A stretch of 64,000 bases of DNA from Oehlia diaphana (taxonomy: Eukaryota > Glomeromycota > Glomeromycetes > Glomerales > Glomeraceae), in the NCBI GenBank assembly GCA_003833135.1, contig QZLH01000187.1, forward strand, positions 1 through 64,000, in the 5' to 3' direction. Made by a program: the position numbers and the translations under genes. Every line of letters begins with the position of its first letter. Position 1 is the stretch's first letter. Below the pieces are notes generated by a model that saw nothing but the letters and a program-made list of their open reading frames with translations, was not told where the DNA came from and ran no database searches. Shown here piece after piece: positions 35,920-45,813 of this stretch.

Positions 35920-36066
35920 TTGCATAAAAAAGATTTTTACTGTCTACTTCATTTGTATTATTTGTTCTTTTTTCAATTGTTGACATTTCCTCATTTCATA
36001 ATATTTTCTTTTTTATAAAAACAAATAAACATTATAATATTTAATAGATTTAATAGATTTGATAGA

Positions 36067-37792
36067 TTAAGACCAACCCATATAATTCCATAAAGATTGT
36101 TTTAATTTTTGGTAATCTAAATTTTTACCAATGATAACTATCTTGTCATCAATTGTTTGATTACTAGACGATGAAGGAGCTTGTTGTAAATCATATAATT
36201 CTTGAACTCCCTGAATTACAATTCGTGAATCTGGATTTGAAATTGGAGTTAGGATACCTTTAAGTCTAAGAATCGTAATATTATCAGAGGAAGTAATTGG
36301 AATAGTTTTCTCCCATAATATCCATTGTATCCAACGTTCAAATTTTGGTATATCAATAGTTTTTACAGGAAACTCTGATAAACATATGGTTCTTACTTCC
36401 TTTAATTTATTTTAAAAAGATTCAATGTAAGAAATTACGGAAACATATTTAATTATTAAGCAAAAGTGACAAACCTTTTCTATATGATGATGAGATTGTG
36501 TTTCCGATCCCAAGACATTTGGTTCTGAATTATTTAGTGTTAGAACTTGTTTAAAATCATAAGCGTGAATGTCTAATATGAAATTTAATGGAACTCTACA
36601 TAAGTAACAAAACAATTAGTAATTGGAATAATATATGTGCACGACTTTATGACAAGCACCTTGATTTTTCTGTTCTTAATATATCTGCGGCTGAATTAAT
36701 TAATCTATTAAAGCAATGTGATACTTGTTAGCAAAATTCATCTTTAATATGTAAAGAGTTAACTGCCATATTTACCTTATTTGTGCTTGTACAGTGTTTA
36801 ATGTTAAAGGTGTGACTAGATCCATTTTGTTTATTATTATTCTATCTGCTATTGCTATCTGTCTTTTAAAAATATATTTCGGTGTTAAATTACATATAAA
36901 GCTACTATCATTTTATCACTTATCGCATTTATCACTTATGAATTTACCTTACTGCTTCATTAATTGGTTCATCTTCCTTTTCTTCTAATAAATACTGATA
37001 AAAAGAATAAAAAGAATATAAATATAAATATATATTCCTTACAAAATACATTCATAACTTACTTGTTGAATATACTTTGCATCCACTAATGTTACAATAC
37101 CATCCAAATATATATCGCCGCCTAAATCATCATCTAACCAAAACATTGAGGCTATTGGACCTGGATCTGCTAATCCTGTTGTTTCCAATAAAATATAATC
37201 AAATTTTCCTTTCTTTTGCATTAAATTTTCAATAGCCTTAACTCCATTATCTCTATTTATAGAATTAAAATTTTTTATAAAAGAACTATTATAGATTGTT
37301 AATATTATTTTTGATCAATCAACTTACTTAACAGAACAGCACAAACAACCATTTTTTAATTCTAACCATTCTTCAAATAAATCTCCATCTTGACTTATTG
37401 ATAATGATTTTTCTATTCCACTACCTTATAAAAAATATATAAGAATATATAATTACAAAATAAATAAAGACTAATACTAACTATAAAAAACATATACTTA
37501 CTTTCTCCGAATTCATTTAATATTACTGCGATCTTTTTACCATGTTGTTCCGTCAATATGTAATTGAGTAAAGTAGTTTTACCCGACCCAAGGAAACCAG
37601 TAATTATTGTTATTGGAACTTTAGAACCGACATTTCCTTCGATATTTAATTTTTCATTTTCTTGAACAGGATTGCCTCTTTAGATCAAAAGTTAGTTTTA
37701 ATAAAAAATAAAATAAATGAATAACTACAAACATACACGCTACTTGAATCTAGAATTACTTCTACTAGCTCTGGAATTTCAGAGTCAGCCAT
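36067..37792 (-). CDS. ZNG1: CobW/ZNG1-type metallochaperone GTPase
   Basis: G3E-family GTPase; eukaryotic members (CBWD/ZNG1) deliver zinc to methionine aminopeptidase. Nine exons (37737-37792, 37502-37677, 37328-37424, 37063-37252, 36948-36994, 36776-36862, 36660-36704, 36475-36595, 36067-36399) give 383 aa. Seen: an N-terminal acidic segment ending in EIPELVE, a motif of the type used to contact methionine aminopeptidase; Walker [10 protein letters not shown]; metal-site motif [19 protein letters not shown] guanine specificity; a histidine cluster SHHHIEK; and a C-terminal CobW domain. Start codons of this gene and CutC lie 110 bp apart in opposite directions. Confidence 0.93.
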
Positions 37793-37902
37793 TTAAAATA
37801 TTTTAGCCAGTTATCAAAAAAAAAAAGGCCAGATTCTCGGATTTATAGGATGGATCGTCACAAATTTCACATCAGAAAAATTAGTTTCCGTATTTTTTAT
37901 CA
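37793..37902. promoter_or_regulatory. Divergent ZNG1/CutC promoter
   Basis: Only 110 bp separate the start codons of two metal-related genes on opposite strands, so the promoters overlap and co-regulation is plausible. No metal-response element is recognised. Confidence 0.6.
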
Positions 37903-39286
37903 ATGTCAAAGAAAATTCCAAAATTTGAGGTATGTAAAACTTTCTCATGATAAAAATAAAATAAAATAATCTGTCATTATTATTATTATTATTTTTTTGA
38001 TAAAAGGTGTGTATCGACTCGGTTCAATCCGCAGCAAATGCAGGTACATAATTTTGTAATTTTTTATTTTGAAAAGTTACTTTGACATTTACAAGCTATC
38101 ATTCAAAGAAAACGGTAAAGCATCTCGTGTAGAATTATGCAGTAATCTTGTAGAAGGTGGAACTACACCAAGCTCAGGTATCATCCAAAATGTATTTTTC
38201 ATCCTTTATCATTTACGCTTATTTCATATTTTTATTTAACGTAGGAATGATCGCCGCAATTCTCGAACGAATAAAAATCCCAGTCATGGTAAAGAAAACA
38301 CGCATTTATTCCTTGTTTTTGTAAATTGAAACTCAAATATGGAAATTTATTTCTTGTAGGTTATGATAAGACCAAGGTTTGTTTCATCCAAAATTTCAAA
38401 ATTTAAAATTTCAGAAGAGACATTTAACTTCTAACCTATAATTTTAGAGGCGGCGATTTCTGTTATAGTGATGACGAATTTAAAGTAATGTGCCTAGACA
38501 TCCAACACGCAAAATTGCTTGGTGCACACGGCGTCGTTTTTGGTATCTTGAAACCCGATGGGAATGTGGATATTGACAGAGTTTCAAAGTAAAAAATAAT
38601 ACATATATTTGTTTAAAAATTATGGCATTGATTTGATTATATCCTTTTAGGTTAGTCGACTTTGCGAAACCCCTGAAAGGTCGGTTCATTGATATAAATC
38701 TGCTTACAATTTTCTCACGATCTTGTGATAACAGATATTCTTGTTTAAAGTAACATTCCATAGAGCATTTGACATGACCAATGACCCATTCAAGGCCCTT
38801 GAAGATATTATTTCAATTGGAGGCATTCAGAGGATTTTAACAAGGTAATGATGAAACTATTTCCAAATATTTATTTGTTAATAATTTCTAAAACAGCATG
38901 AAAACATTTACAAGTGGACATGATAGTAATGTTCTGGAAGGTTTAGATACGATTATTAAATTAGTCAAACAAGCTAACGATCGTATTGTGATAATGGCAG
39001 GTGGTGGTAAGTTCAATTTTCTGTATAAAAATCTTGGCGTTCAATAACAGATTTCTTGAAATTTTCAGGTATTCGAGAGTCGAATATAGAAAGGATTTTA
39101 TCTGCTATTGAGTTAAAAGAAATTCACGTATCAGCAAGTACTACTATCCCTTCTGTCATGGAATATAAAATTTCGACTATACATATGGGTAGAGCTTATT
39201 ATAATAGCGAATATATGATAAACGTTGTAAGTGAAGAGAGACTTAAAGAGATGATTTCTGCATATGACAGAGAATCCTCCAAGTAA
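37903..39286 (+). CDS. CUTC: CutC family protein
   Basis: TIM-barrel protein linked to copper homeostasis in bacteria and animals; its exact reaction is unsettled. Ten exons (37903-37929, 38007-38043, 38109-38177, 38245-38288, 38360-38376, 38448-38588, 38651-38679, 38751-38844, 38897-39006, 39069-39286) give 261 aa. Seen: FEVCIDSVQSA, RVELCSNLVEGGTTPSSG, PVMVMIRPRGGDFCYSD, GVVFGILKPDGNVD, VTFHRAFDM, and the closing GGIRESNI and IHVSAST. The 17-nt fifth exon is short but required for the frame. Confidence 0.95.
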
Positions 39287-39720
39287 ACTTTTGCGGGAAT
39301 CCTTTTTTTTTACAAATGATTGTATAACCCTTGTCACAATAAAAAATAATAAATCTTATTCGGATTGCTGGATAATCTTGTTCTAATTTGGATTTGGCAG
39401 CCGATCTATAATTAGTAGATTTGCTATGGCAAATATGGATGGTATTTTCAAGAATAGCAGACATAGTAGATTAGATAGTAAACAATCAGATGTCATTTTG
39501 CCAATTTAGCAGAATAATATAAGGTAATCCGTTTAAAAATTGAGAGATCCGGATATCGCTATTTAGATAATGAGTTATCCGAATAAATCACTCTAGGATA
39601 ATCCGAATTATAGCCTCATTGCTTAGGCTACATTAAAAGTGTATAAAGTGCTTGCAAATTGTGTGTTTTACGTCTTTATGTGTTTATATATCATTATAAC
39701 ACAGATATTAGTTAAAATTA
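39287..39720. other. Intergenic region upstream of IS607-like relic
   Basis: Several copies and inversions of a GGATAATCCGAAT-like word (near 39365, 39573 and 39594) suggest a decayed repeat. No gene seen. Confidence 0.45.
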
Positions 39721-40290
39721 TGTTGCTTTCTGCTTCTAAAGCATTTAAACTTTTAGGCGTTTCAGCTAGTACACTTCGGCGTTGGAACAGGGAGAATAAA
39801 AGTACAATCTTCTAGACTTCCCTCAGGACACAGAGTTTATAACGTTGAGTCCATACTTAGAAATCATGCTATCACCACCACTGCCACCACCTCCACCTCT
39901 TTGGAATCCCAACATGGATCTTTTGTTTATGCCAGGGTCTCAAGCTTAAAACTGAAAGAAGATCTTGAAAGACAGAAACAATACCTCCTCTTGCAGTATC
40001 CAAAGTTCCAAACCACTGCCTTATTTTAGATATCGGCTTCAGTATCAATTTCAAGAGATCCGGATTGCGTTCCCTACTGGAACAATCAAGTCGTGGACTG
40101 GTTAAAGAAGTTGTTGTTGCCCACAGAGACAGGCTGTGTCAGTTCACCTTTGACCTTTTGTCTTCAAGCTTAATGGCACAAAGATATGGTTCTCTCAGAA
40201 GATAACCCAACAGATGAAAGGGAACTATCTCAGAATATCCTCTATTAATACAGTCTTCATTTGCCGATTATAGGGAAAGCGTTCTGCCAG
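39721..40290 (+). pseudogene. tnpA: IS607-type serine recombinase TnpA (pseudogene)
   Basis: Begins MLLSASKAFKLLGVSAST followed by LRRW, the MerR-like helix-turn-helix typical of IS607 TnpA. After a frameshift near 39803-39815 comes SSRLPSGHRVYNVESI, then SFVYARVSSLKLKEDLERQK with the YARVSS catalytic-serine motif, and QKQYLLLQYPKFQ. After a stop and frameshift near 40028 it continues DIGFSINFKRSGLRSLLEQ and KEVVVAHRDRLCQF, the conserved resolvase core. Frameshifts and stops follow (TAA in the LQA segment near 40170). No intact frame remains. Family assignment is secure from the order of motifs. Confidence 0.87.
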
Positions 40291-40384
40291 GTAATTATTT
40301 TATTTTTTTCATATAAATATTTAACTTTAGCTTTATTTTTGTAATAAATGATCAAACAAATTCTAATCGACTTGATCTATTCAG

Positions 40385-41610
40385 ATACAGATAAGAATGG
40401 AAACAAAACAAAAAACAAAAAACACAAGAAGAAAGTGCAAACAACAGGATGAGCCAAAAGAATGAAGAAAGTAGACTTGACACAATTGCTAAAATACGAA
40501 TGTATCCCAATTCCTTTCAGAAGATCTTTCTTTAACAATGGATGGGTTGTGCGATTAGTTTACAATATGATAGTGGACAATTACTGCTTAGATCATAGAA
40601 TTACAAGGCAATTTTTCTTTAGGATGCTCCTCCGGCTAAAGATTAAACATAACAGACGCTATACAAGCAAGAGATGAGGTTATCACAAGGAATAAGGAGA
40701 ATCAAATCAACATTATGTATGTTCTTCATTTTAGATCTAAGAAAAATGATATGCTCAATACTTTCGTAAACCACCCCATTTTTATATCAGGCTTCTACAT
40801 AATAAGAAGCTTCTTGCTGTTGATTAAAACATTCATGTCACAAAATGGTTACCATTTTATTATAGATATTGAAGACGCAATCATGGTTGACTGAATGAGA
40901 TTGGCAAAATTAAAATGAACTCGAAGCTAATATATAAGAGAAAACTAGGATATTGGACATTTATATAAGTACACAGAAAATCTATCCACAAGAACCAAGC
41001 AAAAGAAATTCACGTTGCAGCCATCAATCCCAGAATTCGCACCTTTCTTACATGGTATTCTCCCATGAAAACATCAGAGACAATGATATCAATTATGTTT
41101 TTGCTTATGCTTGGCTCTTGATGCCTTCCTTTATCTCATGCACTACCAGAGCATTAGCAAAAAAGTGTAACTCTATTAAACGCGCTCAAGCGCGCATAAA
41201 AGACATATTCAAAATTTAATGGATAAAGTACATAAAAAAACTGCATTATGGTTGACTAAGATTTTTGATATAATTGTATTACCAAAATTTAATAGCATAC
41301 AGATGTCTTATAGACAAAAAAGAAAATTTATAGTAAAACAGTTTTAAAGATGATGAGCTGGGCGTATGCTGGGTTTAGGAATCGATTATTATCTAAAGCG
41401 GAAGAATTTGGTAAAATCATTAAAATCATAATAAAATTCATGTTTGAAACATATATAAGTAAAACATGCAGTCATTGCGGATATATTAAGAGAAATTTGG
41501 GCGGGAATAAAGTATTTAGGTGTGATGGGTGTGGACTCAGGTTAATAAAGATCTAAATGACATTGGAAGAATTTTTCTCTGGGCATTGTTTGATAATGCC
41601 TTAGTTATGT
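40385..41610 (+). pseudogene. TnpB/Fanzor2-like nuclease (pseudogene)
   Basis: Fragments in TnpB order: a lysine-rich start; KIRMYPNSFQKIF...QWMGCA and, one frame over, RLVYNMIVDNYCLDH (the N-terminal IRxYP...GCAR.xYN region). Then HVAAINPRIRTFLTWYSP (RuvC-I, normally ALDPGVRTF), VHKKTALWLTK, IIVLPKFNSIQMS, MMSWAYAGFRNRLLSKAEEF, and FETYISKTCSHCGYIKRNLG followed by FRCDGCG (RuvC-II glutamate and the four-cysteine zinc finger). Last comes NKDLNDIGRIFLWAL in a shifted frame (RuvC-III, normally DRDxNGARN). Stops occur throughout and the RuvC-I aspartate is asparagine, so it is dead twice over. Confidence 0.86.
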
Positions 41611-41620
41611 AACATAATTA

Positions 41621-43039
41621 TGCTAATTGATTAATTAAAGTTGATTATTTCTATAGTTGATCGATTTAATCCATCCGGAAAATATTCAATGCTACGTATA
41701 ATGCATATTTAATCTCTAATTTTCTCTATATACAACTGAACCAATTCACAGTTCGGTGATATTTAAACCCTCTATCCATATATATTGCTAATATAATTAA
41801 CTAGTAAATTAACAAATTTAACTTTCACATTCTTCAGACTTTTTTTTATTTAAAAGTAAATATTTTTTAAAAAAATTTTCCATCAGTAAAATTATTTTTT
41901 ATTCTTGATTTCTCTTTAGCTTTTTTATCATGTAAGACAATATCTTTTTTAAATCATTTTCATCTATATGAAAAAGGTTTTTTATCCATCAATTCTTAAT
42001 TCATATTATTCTATCCATGTAATTAGATAAGAATAATAATCAAATTACTATTCTTGAAATTTAATTTTAAATATTTTCTAATTGCAAATTTTTATTCTTA
42101 CTTTTAAATATGATAAATTTTACTTTTTTTTCCACTTATATAATATTGTTTTTGGTTATTTTTTAATTTAATTTTAAACTTTTTAATAATATAAATTATA
42201 TTATATATAAAAAGAACTTTTTTTAATCTCTTATATATAGAATTTAGTAAAGAAAGGGGGTTTTCTAAATAATTTCCTTAATAAAATAATATTTACTAAT
42301 ACTTTATTATTTTTAACTTTTTATTATATATTATATAAATATATATTTTTTTAGTATTTAATCTATTTAAATAGAAATTGTCTAGTATTTTTTTTATAAA
42401 TGGTACTAAATTTTTATAAATTAAAATAAGATATTATACCTATATTTTTTAGTATTATAAAAATTAAATTATTATTAATAATGTTTATATTAGCTAATTA
42501 AACCAATTTCCTGAAAAATAAATAGCTTCAATTTTAGTAATATAGAAATAAATAAAAAGTTTTCTTATTAATAAACATTTATATTCCTTTTTTTACTTAA
42601 AATTAATTTATTTTAAGTATATTTTACATTTCTTTTAGCTATTACTAAATATTTATTCAAATGTTACAATAATTCTCAAGAAAGACTTTAAATACATAGT
42701 AATTCTGAATCAAAAGAATAATTTTGAAAATTTGGATATTAAAAATAGAGTTTTGGATAGATAGATAGTTGCTATAATTTCATGATCGTCCCTGCAGATT
42801 GTCACTTATGCAATTAAAGTAACGAAAATAGATGCTATATATGACCACTATTTACATAATTTGGAGGATAAGAAATCAAAATTTGCCACGAGTTTTTTAT
42901 ATTTGCATAAAAGGTTACACAAAAAAAATTTGAAGAGAGTTATTGGTTAACGTTTTTTAAGCCGGGTAAATATAAATAGAAATAATACAAAAGAACCAGA
43001 GAAATATATCTTTTAATATTCTGAGAGCGATTCTACAAA
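41621..43039. other. Extremely AT-rich spacer, no gene
   Basis: About 1.4 kb of A/T runs before the TM9SF start. Nothing coding or structured that I can support. The last 80 bases (AAATATAAATAG near 42967) may hold the TM9SF promoter. Confidence 0.5.
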
Positions 43040-45813
43040 ATGGCGCCGCCACGCTCTTTCATTATTACTTGCATTCTAATACTTACCATATCAGCAAATA
43101 CTTTTGCATTTTATTTGCCAGGTGTTGCACCTCGCGATTATAGAGAAGGCGATGAAGTAGAAGTACATGTCAATTCCCTCACACCGATGATGGGACCCGC
43201 AACTCAACAACTTAAGTCTGTTATTCCCTACGATTATTATTATAAACCTTTCCATTTTTGTCAACCAAAGGAATTAAAGAGTCAACCCGAATCATTAGGA
43301 AGTATTTTATTTGGAGATCGTATTTTTAGCTCCGCTTATGTGGTATAAATTTAGATTTTTGCCTTCGTCTATTGATTATTCGTGCATCATTTTTTATTTA
43401 TATAAGTATTTATTTAGAAATTGATTTGAAAATGTATTCTTTTTAATAAAATTAATCAATAGCTCAAAATGAAAGTCGACGAAAAATGCAAACTTCTTTG
43501 CAATCAAACAGTTCCCCCTGAAGATGCTAAATTCATTAACCAGCGTATTCGAGAAAATTATGCTATCAATTGGCTCATTGATGGACTTCCAGCCGCTAGT
43601 AAAAAGTTAGACGCTAAAACTCACACTAATTTTAACAGTATCGGATTTGAATTAGGAGATCAAACTGCTGAACCATCTTTGAATAATCATTATGATATAA
43701 CAATTCAATATCATACTCAAGATAAAAACAAGTATCGGGTTGTCGGTGTAATTGTAAAACCATTCAGGTATAAAGAATTAATTGGATATTTCGATATCAT
43801 TTTGTTCAATTAACATTTACTACATTTACTAATATTTGATACTTTCTTTTTGCAAAAAAAGCCGAAAATATGATGCAACATTATTAAGGTATAAAGAGTT
43901 GGTTGTTTATTTTCGATATCATTTGCTCATTTTGCTCAAACAACATTTATTAATATTTAATACTTTTTTTGCAATAAAAAGTCAAAAAGATGAAAATAAA
44001 GATTGTGATTCTGTTATCAACAGATTAGTACTAAGCGAAACTAATTCTAATGAAGTATTTTACACTTACGACATATCATGGGTTGTGAGTATTTTTTATA
44101 ATAAGATTTAATTATTTTTTTTTTTAAAAAAATTAGTCAATATTTTAAAATTTTTTATTTAGTCTTCTTCAACTGCATGGGCAACACGCTGGGACAGTTA
44201 TTTACATACTTTTGACCCAAGAATTCATTGGTTCAGTTTGGTAAATTCTATTGTCATTGTGTTATTCTTGACAGGTATGGTTGCTATGATATTACTTCGT
44301 GCTTTGCACAAGGATATCTCCCGATACAATCAAATTGAGGATAAGGTATTTATTTATTTTATTAGAAAGAAATCCATTTCTTTTTTTTAATAAAATTTCT
44401 GTATATGAATTTATAGGAAGACGTTCAAGAAGATTTTGGATGGAAATTAGTTCATGGTGATGTCTTCCGTCCTCCGGTTAACGTCATGTTATTATCCGTT
44501 TTTTTGGGAAGTGGCGCACAGTTATTCTTTATGACTGCTGTTACACTTGGTTAGTATTATACTTTCGATTTACCAAATATGAATAATAACTTGTAAATTA
44601 ATGGTATATTATTATTACTTTTTCAGTTTTTGCCGTTCTTGGTTTCCTTTCACCTTCAAACCGCGGTTCTCTAGCTACAGTCATGATCATATTTTATATG
44701 CTCTTTGGTTCCGTAGCTGGATATGTTTCTGCTCGCGTATACAAAATGTTTAACGGTGATTCGTGGAAGAAAAATGTTTTTTTAACAGCTTTCTTATTCC
44801 CATCGTAAGTAGTCAATTAATTTGTTTATTTATATCATTTTTTAAAAGGGATAAGAAAGAAATTTCGGAAAAAACAAATTTGAGAAATTATTGATTCAAA
44901 ATTTTTTATCTGCATTATAGACTTATTTTCGCTATCTTTGTGGTCCTAAATTTTTTCCTTGTCTCGGCAAAGTCTTCTGGCGCTGTCCCTGCCACAACAT
45001 TATTAGCTATAATTGGATTATGGTTTTTAATATCCGTTCCCTTATGTTTCATCGGTTCATTTTTCGGATTCAGAAAACCTGTATGTTTGTTTTGTGATAG
45101 CGTGTTGATGAAAAAAAAAAGTTGGAAGTGAAAATTAACACTTATTTCTTTTATTTACTTTAGAAAATTGAACATCCAGTTCGTACAAACCAAATCCCAC
45201 GGCAAATTCCCGATCAAGTATTTTATTTACGGCCAATCCCTTCTATGCTCATGGGCGGTGTACTCCCATTCGGCGCTATTTTTATCGAATTATATTTCAT
45301 AATGAACAGCATTTGGGGAAATAAAGTATATTATTTGTTTGGATTTGCCGCTTTGGTGTTTGTAATCCTTACCATTACCTGTTCAGAAGTTACAATTTTA
45401 TTGTGTTACTTCCATCTTTGTGCAGAGGTTAGTTTGAATATATCAATTTTCAAATGTGATTTTCAGTTTATTTACCTATCAATTTTTTTAATCCAGGACT
45501 ACCATTGGTCGTGGAGAGCTTTCCTAACATCTGGAGCGTCCGGATTATATATATTCATCTATTCTATTATGTATTTCGCAACTAGATTACAAATTACATC
45601 ATTAACAAGCACAGTCATATATTTTGGATGGTCAGGAGTTATGAGTTTAATGTTCTTCGTTCTTACTGGTACGTTTATATTTATTTTAATCAGTTTTTGA
45701 TGAATAATTTGTGAAAAGCAATCTAATTATTTTTCATTTGCGTAGGAACAATTGGATATTTTGCATGTCTTGCTTTTATCCGTAGGATTTTTATGAGTAT
45801 TAAAGTGGATTAA
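43040..45813 (+). CDS. EMP70: TM9SF/Emp70 nine-transmembrane protein
   Basis: Endosome/Golgi nonaspanin. Eleven exons (43040-43342, 43463-43767, 43862-43888, 43982-44084, 44163-44345, 44417-44549, 44627-44804, 44921-45080, 45164-45427, 45497-45668, 45746-45813) give 631 aa. Seen: a signal peptide (about 1-23, [18 protein letters not shown]), [37 protein letters not shown], the luminal domain with [21 protein letters not shown], then nine hydrophobic segments. The end SIKVD carries the KxD Golgi-retention signal of the family. The third exon is a 27-nt microexon; skipping it gives 622 aa in the same frame. Confidence 0.95.
43766..43981 (+). repeat. Tandemly duplicated intron around a microexon
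   Basis: Two diverged copies of an intron of about 93 bp (43768-43861 and 43889-43981). Both begin GTATAAAGA, contain TTCGATATCATTT and TTAATATTT- or CTAATATTT-like sequence, and end in a T-rich tract, GCAA and AAAAAG. Between them lie 27 bases without a stop in the gene frame ([10 protein letters not shown] across the joins). Confidence 0.85.

Follow-up and report, generated by a model that had tools for sequence, protein, structure and literature searches.

A decayed IS607-type transposon with a TnpA recombinase and a Fanzor2-type nuclease in the mycorrhizal fungus Oehlia diaphana

The window analysed here, a stretch of 64,000 nucleotides on contig QZLH01000187.1 (C187) of the Oehlia diaphana assembly GCA_003833135.1, contains at positions 39720-41677 a decayed IS607-type transposon in which a MerR-headed serine recombinase (TnpA) is followed by a TnpB/Fanzor2-type nuclease. 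The order is TnpA and then a nuclease that was probably RNA-guided, both on the plus strand. IS607/Fanzor2 elements are an already known kind, and the new features here are the right end, a covarying hairpin within the coding sequence and the reading frame shared by TnpA and Fanzor2. As a whole, the relic is likely best explained as an IS607-family transposon that adapted to the fungal nucleus with what looks like a spliced TnpA/Fanzor2 arrangement and is now dead.

The element and its two decayed genes

The TnpA remains (39720..40290, plus strand) are frameshifted and contain stops, and were delimited by MerR and transpos_IS607 matches and by similarity to the protein P0131. A MerR-type helix-turn-helix begins at 39720 (Pfam MerR 21.7 bits, under the cut-off of 28.2), the catalytic core occupies about 39921-40181, and a C-terminal CRL.GKRSAR stands at the end of the exon, which extends to 40290. 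In a profile search the recombinase pieces matched NCBIfam transpos_IS607 with E-values of 4.9e-7 (29.5 bits) and 2.2e-12 (46.9 bits), both falling under the whole-protein cut-off of 110 bits, and Pfam Resolvase likewise matched the window pieces only under its cut-off. Four pieces of the window TnpA are 54-89% identical to P0131, an intact-length protein with MerR and then Resolvase, both over cut-off, as expected of an N-terminal DNA-binding domain joined to a serine recombinase. The nearest solved sequences are catalytic domains of IS607-type TnpA, and the intact-length TnpA frames P0122 and P0131 belong to database entries that cluster with proteins of named mycorrhizal fungi.

Directly 3' of TnpA and on the same strand, as in the IS607 layout, lie the Fanzor2/TnpB remains (40385..41612), comprising a basic linker, an N-terminal region with IRMYPNSFQK from about 40494 by frame reading, an eroded RuvC domain, a zinc finger and a stop codon at 41610-41612. 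The near full-length Fanzor frame P0242, which together with P0247 is found among database proteins grouping with named mycorrhizal ones, aligns to 40792-41529 with 34% identity and 14 stops (E 3.6e-19). The RuvC1 motif (41023..41040) reads INPRIR against DPGVR in relatives, so that the aspartate is gone. DPG at this position is invariant in all 13 aligned relatives, and in the part of PMC10711439 covered it is given as a signature of Fanzors and pro-Fanzors. In the RuvC2-region motif DIIVLPKFNSIQ (41267..41302), by our reading, a proline stands where the canonical glutamate would fall, and the same reading places proline there in at least 90% of the aligned relatives. The zinc finger CSHCG...CDGCG (41467..41535) is a C4 finger of TnpB type, lying within an 80-residue 3' frame that matches Pfam Cas12f1-like_TNB (PF07282) at 33 bits, over the cut-off of 26.3, and across 75 positions its region shares 49% identity with P0290 of Borealophlyctis nickersoniae. 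Three viral-contig TnpBs (L050, L053, L054) have no zinc-finger cysteines and keep DPG and the C-terminal hairpin codons described below.

These results bear out most of the first-pass annotation. It had proposed the two-gene plan of IS607, for which profile searches returned both a serine recombinase, matched by the TnpA pieces, and the TnpB zinc-finger domain, and the motifs that it cited are present in the sequence. Its assignment of the nuclease to Fanzor2 agrees with the DPG relatives, the IS607 setting and the TnpB-type finger, and its description of a relic with the lost RuvC1 aspartate and the stops and frameshifts that interrupt both genes. Against its bounds of 39721..41620, TnpA starts at 39720 and the right end lies at about 41677, some 57 bases further on.

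The annotation had also raised the possibility of intact copies elsewhere in the genome (108.8 Mb in 1672 contigs), and here the outcome was negative. Related fragments were identified on at least 30 contigs by family, protein and one right-end searches, some of them weak with E near 1e-4, and no intact copy was found among the fragments on these 30 contigs, 19 of which were read in part as sequence and 11 as match tables only. The longest stop-free match covered 65 of the 469 Fanzor residues of P0242 (49 matches) and 75 of the 193 TnpA residues of P0131 (19 matches), and a DNA search of the genome with the whole element returned the window copy only. Fourteen copies were sorted by nucleotide similarity into three loose groups: group I with C81, C28, C482, C7, C813, C178, C73 and C66; group II with the window copy and C576, whose similarity is 63% across 708 columns; and group III with C3, C545, C267 and C69. 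Pairwise differences within group I, in which a single change can enter several times, amount to 1386 transitions against 337 transversions, and 151 of the transitions are of CpG type.

The junction between TnpA and Fanzor2

A probable GT-AG intron of 94 nt in phase 2 (40291..40384, plus strand) lies exactly at the TnpA/Fanzor2 junction of the window copy. C576 carries a GT-AG stretch of 71 nt at the identical site and in the identical phase, and in both copies the stretch falls exactly between the TnpA ending ...GKRSAR and the linker. Its removal leaves one phase-2 frame leading from TnpA into the Fanzor N-terminus, which is stop-free in C576 and has three stops in the window copy (two near the join and one further on). 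A database protein, P0124, which is in another frame and was compared at the protein level, runs through the same point without the GT-AG stretch. At the sequence level, TnpA and Fanzor2 of the window's subfamily, represented in this genome by these two decayed group II copies, thus share a single reading frame interrupted by a brief GT-AG stretch that resembles an intron. C576 (L019) has in addition an apparent second intron within its Fanzor N-terminal region, a 67-nt GT-AG stretch that is absent from the window copy.

A second line of evidence comes from relatives in which the two parts adjoin directly. P0241, a protein with five member sequences, combines Resolvase (66.4 bits) and the TnpB N-terminal HTH (24.7 bits) in one chain, both over cut-off, and stops soon after the Fanzor N-terminus. 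A gene model from Cetraspora, P0249, contains part of the TnpA core, the linker and the nuclease, with Resolvase at 17 bits, under cut-off. In the O. diaphana genome, P0241 matches across the junction in one net frame in C81, C461 and C995, and in C28 to the end of the linker; C81 and C461 show a brief out-of-frame stretch after the linker, and the alignment of C995 is patchy. Together these sequences suggest that in another fungal subfamily TnpA and Fanzor2 are fused without an intron. Several further candidates were not counted, namely the open frame through the junction of C66, whose frame is unsafe given an 11-nt gap against C813 in the linker, and the junction matches of C813, C576, C187 and C69 to P0241, where the alignment is poor. 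A further junction match, in C1559, comes from a match table.

The arrangement in bacteria is different. Adjacent TnpA and TnpB were found in 85 of the 94 bacterial or phage/viral-contig loci scanned, some of which represent one record, and none of these 85 is fused: TnpB is in the +1 frame in 81, in the +2 frame in three and in the same frame but unfused in one. Within the fungi, the TnpA and Fanzor frames look offset, by our reading, in P0243, P0258, P0264 and P0274 and also in copies C66 and C813. As none of the 85 bacterial or phage/viral-contig loci is fused and some fungal relatives look offset, the fusion is a derived state that not all fungal relatives share.

In 50 distinct bacterial and phage tnpA genes of pro-Fanzor IS607 elements (L049:3785-5447 and 49 others), picked for having TnpB in the +1 frame, that frame was poor in stops, with 93 against 252.3 expected by synonymous codon shuffles, and the +2 frame of the same genes held 529 against 634 expected. 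The median overlap between the open frame of TnpB and tnpA is 515 nt, and it looks as though this shared stretch were being maintained free of stops.

On this evidence we lean, with some reserve, towards an IS607 lineage of mycorrhizal fungi in which the transposase and the guided nuclease would form one spliced polypeptide with a basic linker, descended from bacterial forms whose TnpB occupied the +1 frame, and in which the guide RNA would still overlap the end of the gene. The main alternative accepts the same relic and holds that its two genes never gave a joint protein: TnpA would end at a stop just inside the apparent intron, Fanzor2 would use a downstream start of its own, and the shared frame would result from chance or decay. 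P0131 ends in ...GKRSAR and P0122 in ...GKRSARFV, immediately beyond the junction, which is what unspliced frames meeting stops inside the supposed intron would do, and both the +1 frame in 81 of the 85 bacterial or phage/viral-contig loci and the offset fungal relatives point the same way. Against this, P0241 and the gene model P0249 join both parts in one chain, the four group I copies C81, C28, C461 and C995 keep one net frame across the junction, and the group II stretches differ in length (94 and 71 nt) and share base and phase, at a point where P0124 has no such stretch. We therefore regard this alternative as unlikely and keep the spliced arrangement as the preferred reading. Introns and nuclear localization signals in Fanzors were reportedly described in a 2023 survey in Science Advances, so introns alone are not new. 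No mention of a TnpA-Fanzor fusion was found in the parts of PMC3627910, PMC10711439 and PMC10432273 that were covered.

The right end and a candidate guide-RNA hairpin

A 3' non-coding tail (41613..41677, plus strand) follows the Fanzor stop codon and carries the right end, AATCCATCCG at 41668-41677, with an identical terminus in C576. The right end AATCCATCC is common to two subfamilies, groups I and II. It is exact and followed by G or A in seven of the nine aligned group I copies, beyond which the flanks diverge; in the other two, C73 has one base changed and C1196 is degenerate, and C7 and C28 were left out of this alignment because their similarity is lost before the right end. AATCCATCC occurs once in the window and is also present in 31 of 100 shuffles, so the window match is meaningful only through its position and its agreement with C576. 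A search with the right-end pattern allowing two mismatches returned six known copies together with C256 and C262, against one hit in the backward control. For C256 and C262 (L047, L048), Fanzor and TnpA matches were no better than E 0.57 and the C81 end was matched at just 17-30 bases, and both were taken as chance hits. No left end was located: the left end of C81, used as query, retrieved C28 alone apart from C81, and the left flanks of the window copy and C576 gave no alignment. The alignment of copies advised by the first-pass annotation to locate the element ends fixed the right end only. In the part of PMC10711439 covered (section 25), the guide scaffold of an IS607 TnpB includes a fixed base adjoining the right end, and the C and the usual G after AATCCATC would fit a scaffold that includes such a fixed end base. 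In group III elements (C545, C3, C267 and C69; L015, L017, L039 and L016) the 3' end is of another kind, reading ATTTCAAGGG in C545 and C267, and a further hairpin-like stretch is present.

Near the end of the nuclease gene, the codons for ARGIFLRA form a hairpin of ten pairs, after which comes a short second stem. The two helices were examined in an alignment of 13 chosen sequences, eight phage or viral-contig rows and five from the fungal genome itself; L049 (different codons) and the decayed C7, C28, C178, C1196, C644, C813, C187 and C576 were left out. These rows are related and the shuffles overstate their independence, and with that reservation the helices were paired in 97.0% of cells against a shuffled mean of 83.2, with 23 double-changed cells against a mean of 8.6. 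One of five measures, how many pairs carry a double change, was unexceptional, since 95 of 500 shuffles reached the observed value. The first stem had all ten pairs in 10 of 11 distinct rows, compared with 2.3% of 20,736 synonymous codings. A larger sample pointed in the same direction: in 27 distinct prokaryote or phage rows, taken from the 40 of 125 prokaryote or viral-contig loci that code GARGIFLRA, 75 of 81 silent-site pairs were formed against a shuffled mean of 50.9, and the stem had ten pairs in 21 rows and nine in six. Three forms of the stem occur among the less decayed fungal copies, each with complete pairing. Among the rows listed, TnpBs with other endings (L141, L153, L159 and L161) formed only three to five pairs, and L127 (ARNIMIRA) formed nine despite its other ending.

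With the protein unchanged, selection at the RNA level is the simplest reading of this silent covariation, and a covarying hairpin at the 3' end of the coding sequence from bacteria to fungi is consistent with a candidate guide-RNA scaffold. Folding energy gave an unclear signal, with z between -3.2 and +0.7 at the right ends of ten copies and values down to -9.2 among 44 control windows, and for this reason we rely on the covariation. The conserved 3' guide region that the first-pass annotation had foreseen finds support in the common right end and the hairpin of the relatives, but the window's own counterpart (41559..41584, plus strand), ARGIFLRA in relatives, is eroded and by eye forms no stem.

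By analogy with IS607 biology, TnpA would excise and insert the element without target duplication, and Fanzor2 with a guide RNA from the 3' end of the element would cleave the site left empty, allowing the element to be copied back. The spliced mRNA would give a single TnpA-Fanzor2 polypeptide, or two products might come off one transcript. The copies would then have decayed with transitions predominating.

Relatives, origin and comparison with known systems

Among named proteins, the closest relatives belong to arbuscular mycorrhizal fungi. With the C576 TnpA piece as query, the best named matches among many other proteins were from Rhizophagus diaphanus, Cetraspora pellucida and Diversispora eburnea, and C66 pieces added Rhizophagus irregularis, Gigaspora rosea, Diversispora epigaea and the chytrid Borealophlyctis nickersoniae. 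These named relatives from Rhizophagus, Cetraspora, Diversispora and Gigaspora support the fungal nuclear context claimed at first pass. Bacterial relatives are mostly cyanobacterial, 64 by title of the 80 loci kept from 199 confirmed; a single Poribacteria chromosome (OY282383.1) holds at least seven TnpB-related loci (L141, L159, L166, L173, L190, L197, L200). In a Fanzor tree, built with neither Fanzor1 nor giant-virus Fanzor2, 18 fungal-labelled rows (three named) and four unlabelled rows lie on one side of a branch with support 100/100, and 20 bacterial TnpBs lie across it with seven unlabelled rows. For TnpA, a branch with support 100/99 unites 12 mycorrhizal-labelled rows (two named) and one unlabelled row. 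As expected of Fanzor2, the family of the window's nuclease groups with the pro-Fanzor TnpBs and is part of an IS607 element.

The relic lies just downstream of intron-bearing genes (window 36000-39290), which we take to be those for a CobW-type GTPase (minus strand) and CutC (plus strand), and the start of what is presumably a TM9SF-like protein follows at window 43025-44000. The relic TnpA begins about 430 bases past the CutC-like stop.

An alternative origin, from an integrated large DNA virus that brought the element in or of which it is a part, in place of movement as a fungal transposon, appears quite improbable. Fanzor2/IS607 elements do occur in giant viruses according to the part of PMC3627910 covered, and among solved sequences P0242 best matches the mimivirus TnpB-like protein L79 (PDB 9b0l, E 4.7e-19), a viral protein of only distant sequence similarity. 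However, no close relative of P0242 was found in the viral or prokaryote contigs scanned, the best seven of 36 viral-contig loci in a looser alignment search were 32-46% identical, and the window copy sits between apparently ordinary genes. Bacterial contamination of the assembly, or genes in bacterial DNA, is hardly credible even though IS607 is a bacterial family whose nearest prokaryotic relatives here are mostly cyanobacterial, given the spread of fragments over 30 contigs, the fungal identity of the closest named proteins, the separate clades formed by fungal rows, the divergence and decay of the copies, the intron-bearing genes just upstream and a P0242 search that found no near-identical copy in sequenced bacteria. 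We thus retain a transposon of the fungal nucleus.

The relic places IS607/Fanzor2 in fungi that live in root symbiosis, where one genome contains many dead copies and databases hold relatives of intact length; no report of such an element in mycorrhizal fungi was found in the sources consulted, including the parts of PMC12451028 and PMC5982333 covered. The silent-site covariation offers a direct handle on the guide RNA. A TnpA-Fanzor2 fusion, if true, would indicate how a two-gene bacterial element copes with eukaryotes, which make one protein per mRNA, and would offer a naturally occurring linkage of a recombinase with a guided nuclease.

Among known systems, the eukaryotic IS607/Fanzor2 elements (ACa-1, ISvMimi and others) described in the covered part of PMC3627910 combine a TnpA_IS607-like serine recombinase with Fanzor2, as here; the fungi with Fanzor2 in the part of its table covered are four yeasts or yeast relatives, whereas the present hosts are mycorrhizal fungi. 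Cyanobacterial IS607 pro-Fanzors, in which DPG at RuvC1 is a signature according to the part of PMC10711439 covered and was seen in L049, L050, L053 and L054, resemble the fungal family in having an adjacent TnpA and a covarying 3' hairpin. They differ in frame, since pro-Fanzor-type loci (not all 85 of them cyanobacterial) have TnpB in +1 in 81 of 85 and fused in none, whereas some fungal subfamilies appear to have both genes in one frame. Finally, Fanzor1, compared by description, is a eukaryotic RuvC nuclease with a zinc finger and DPG like the fungal family, but it is absent from IS607 elements in the part of PMC10711439 covered, whereas the window nuclease adjoins TnpA.
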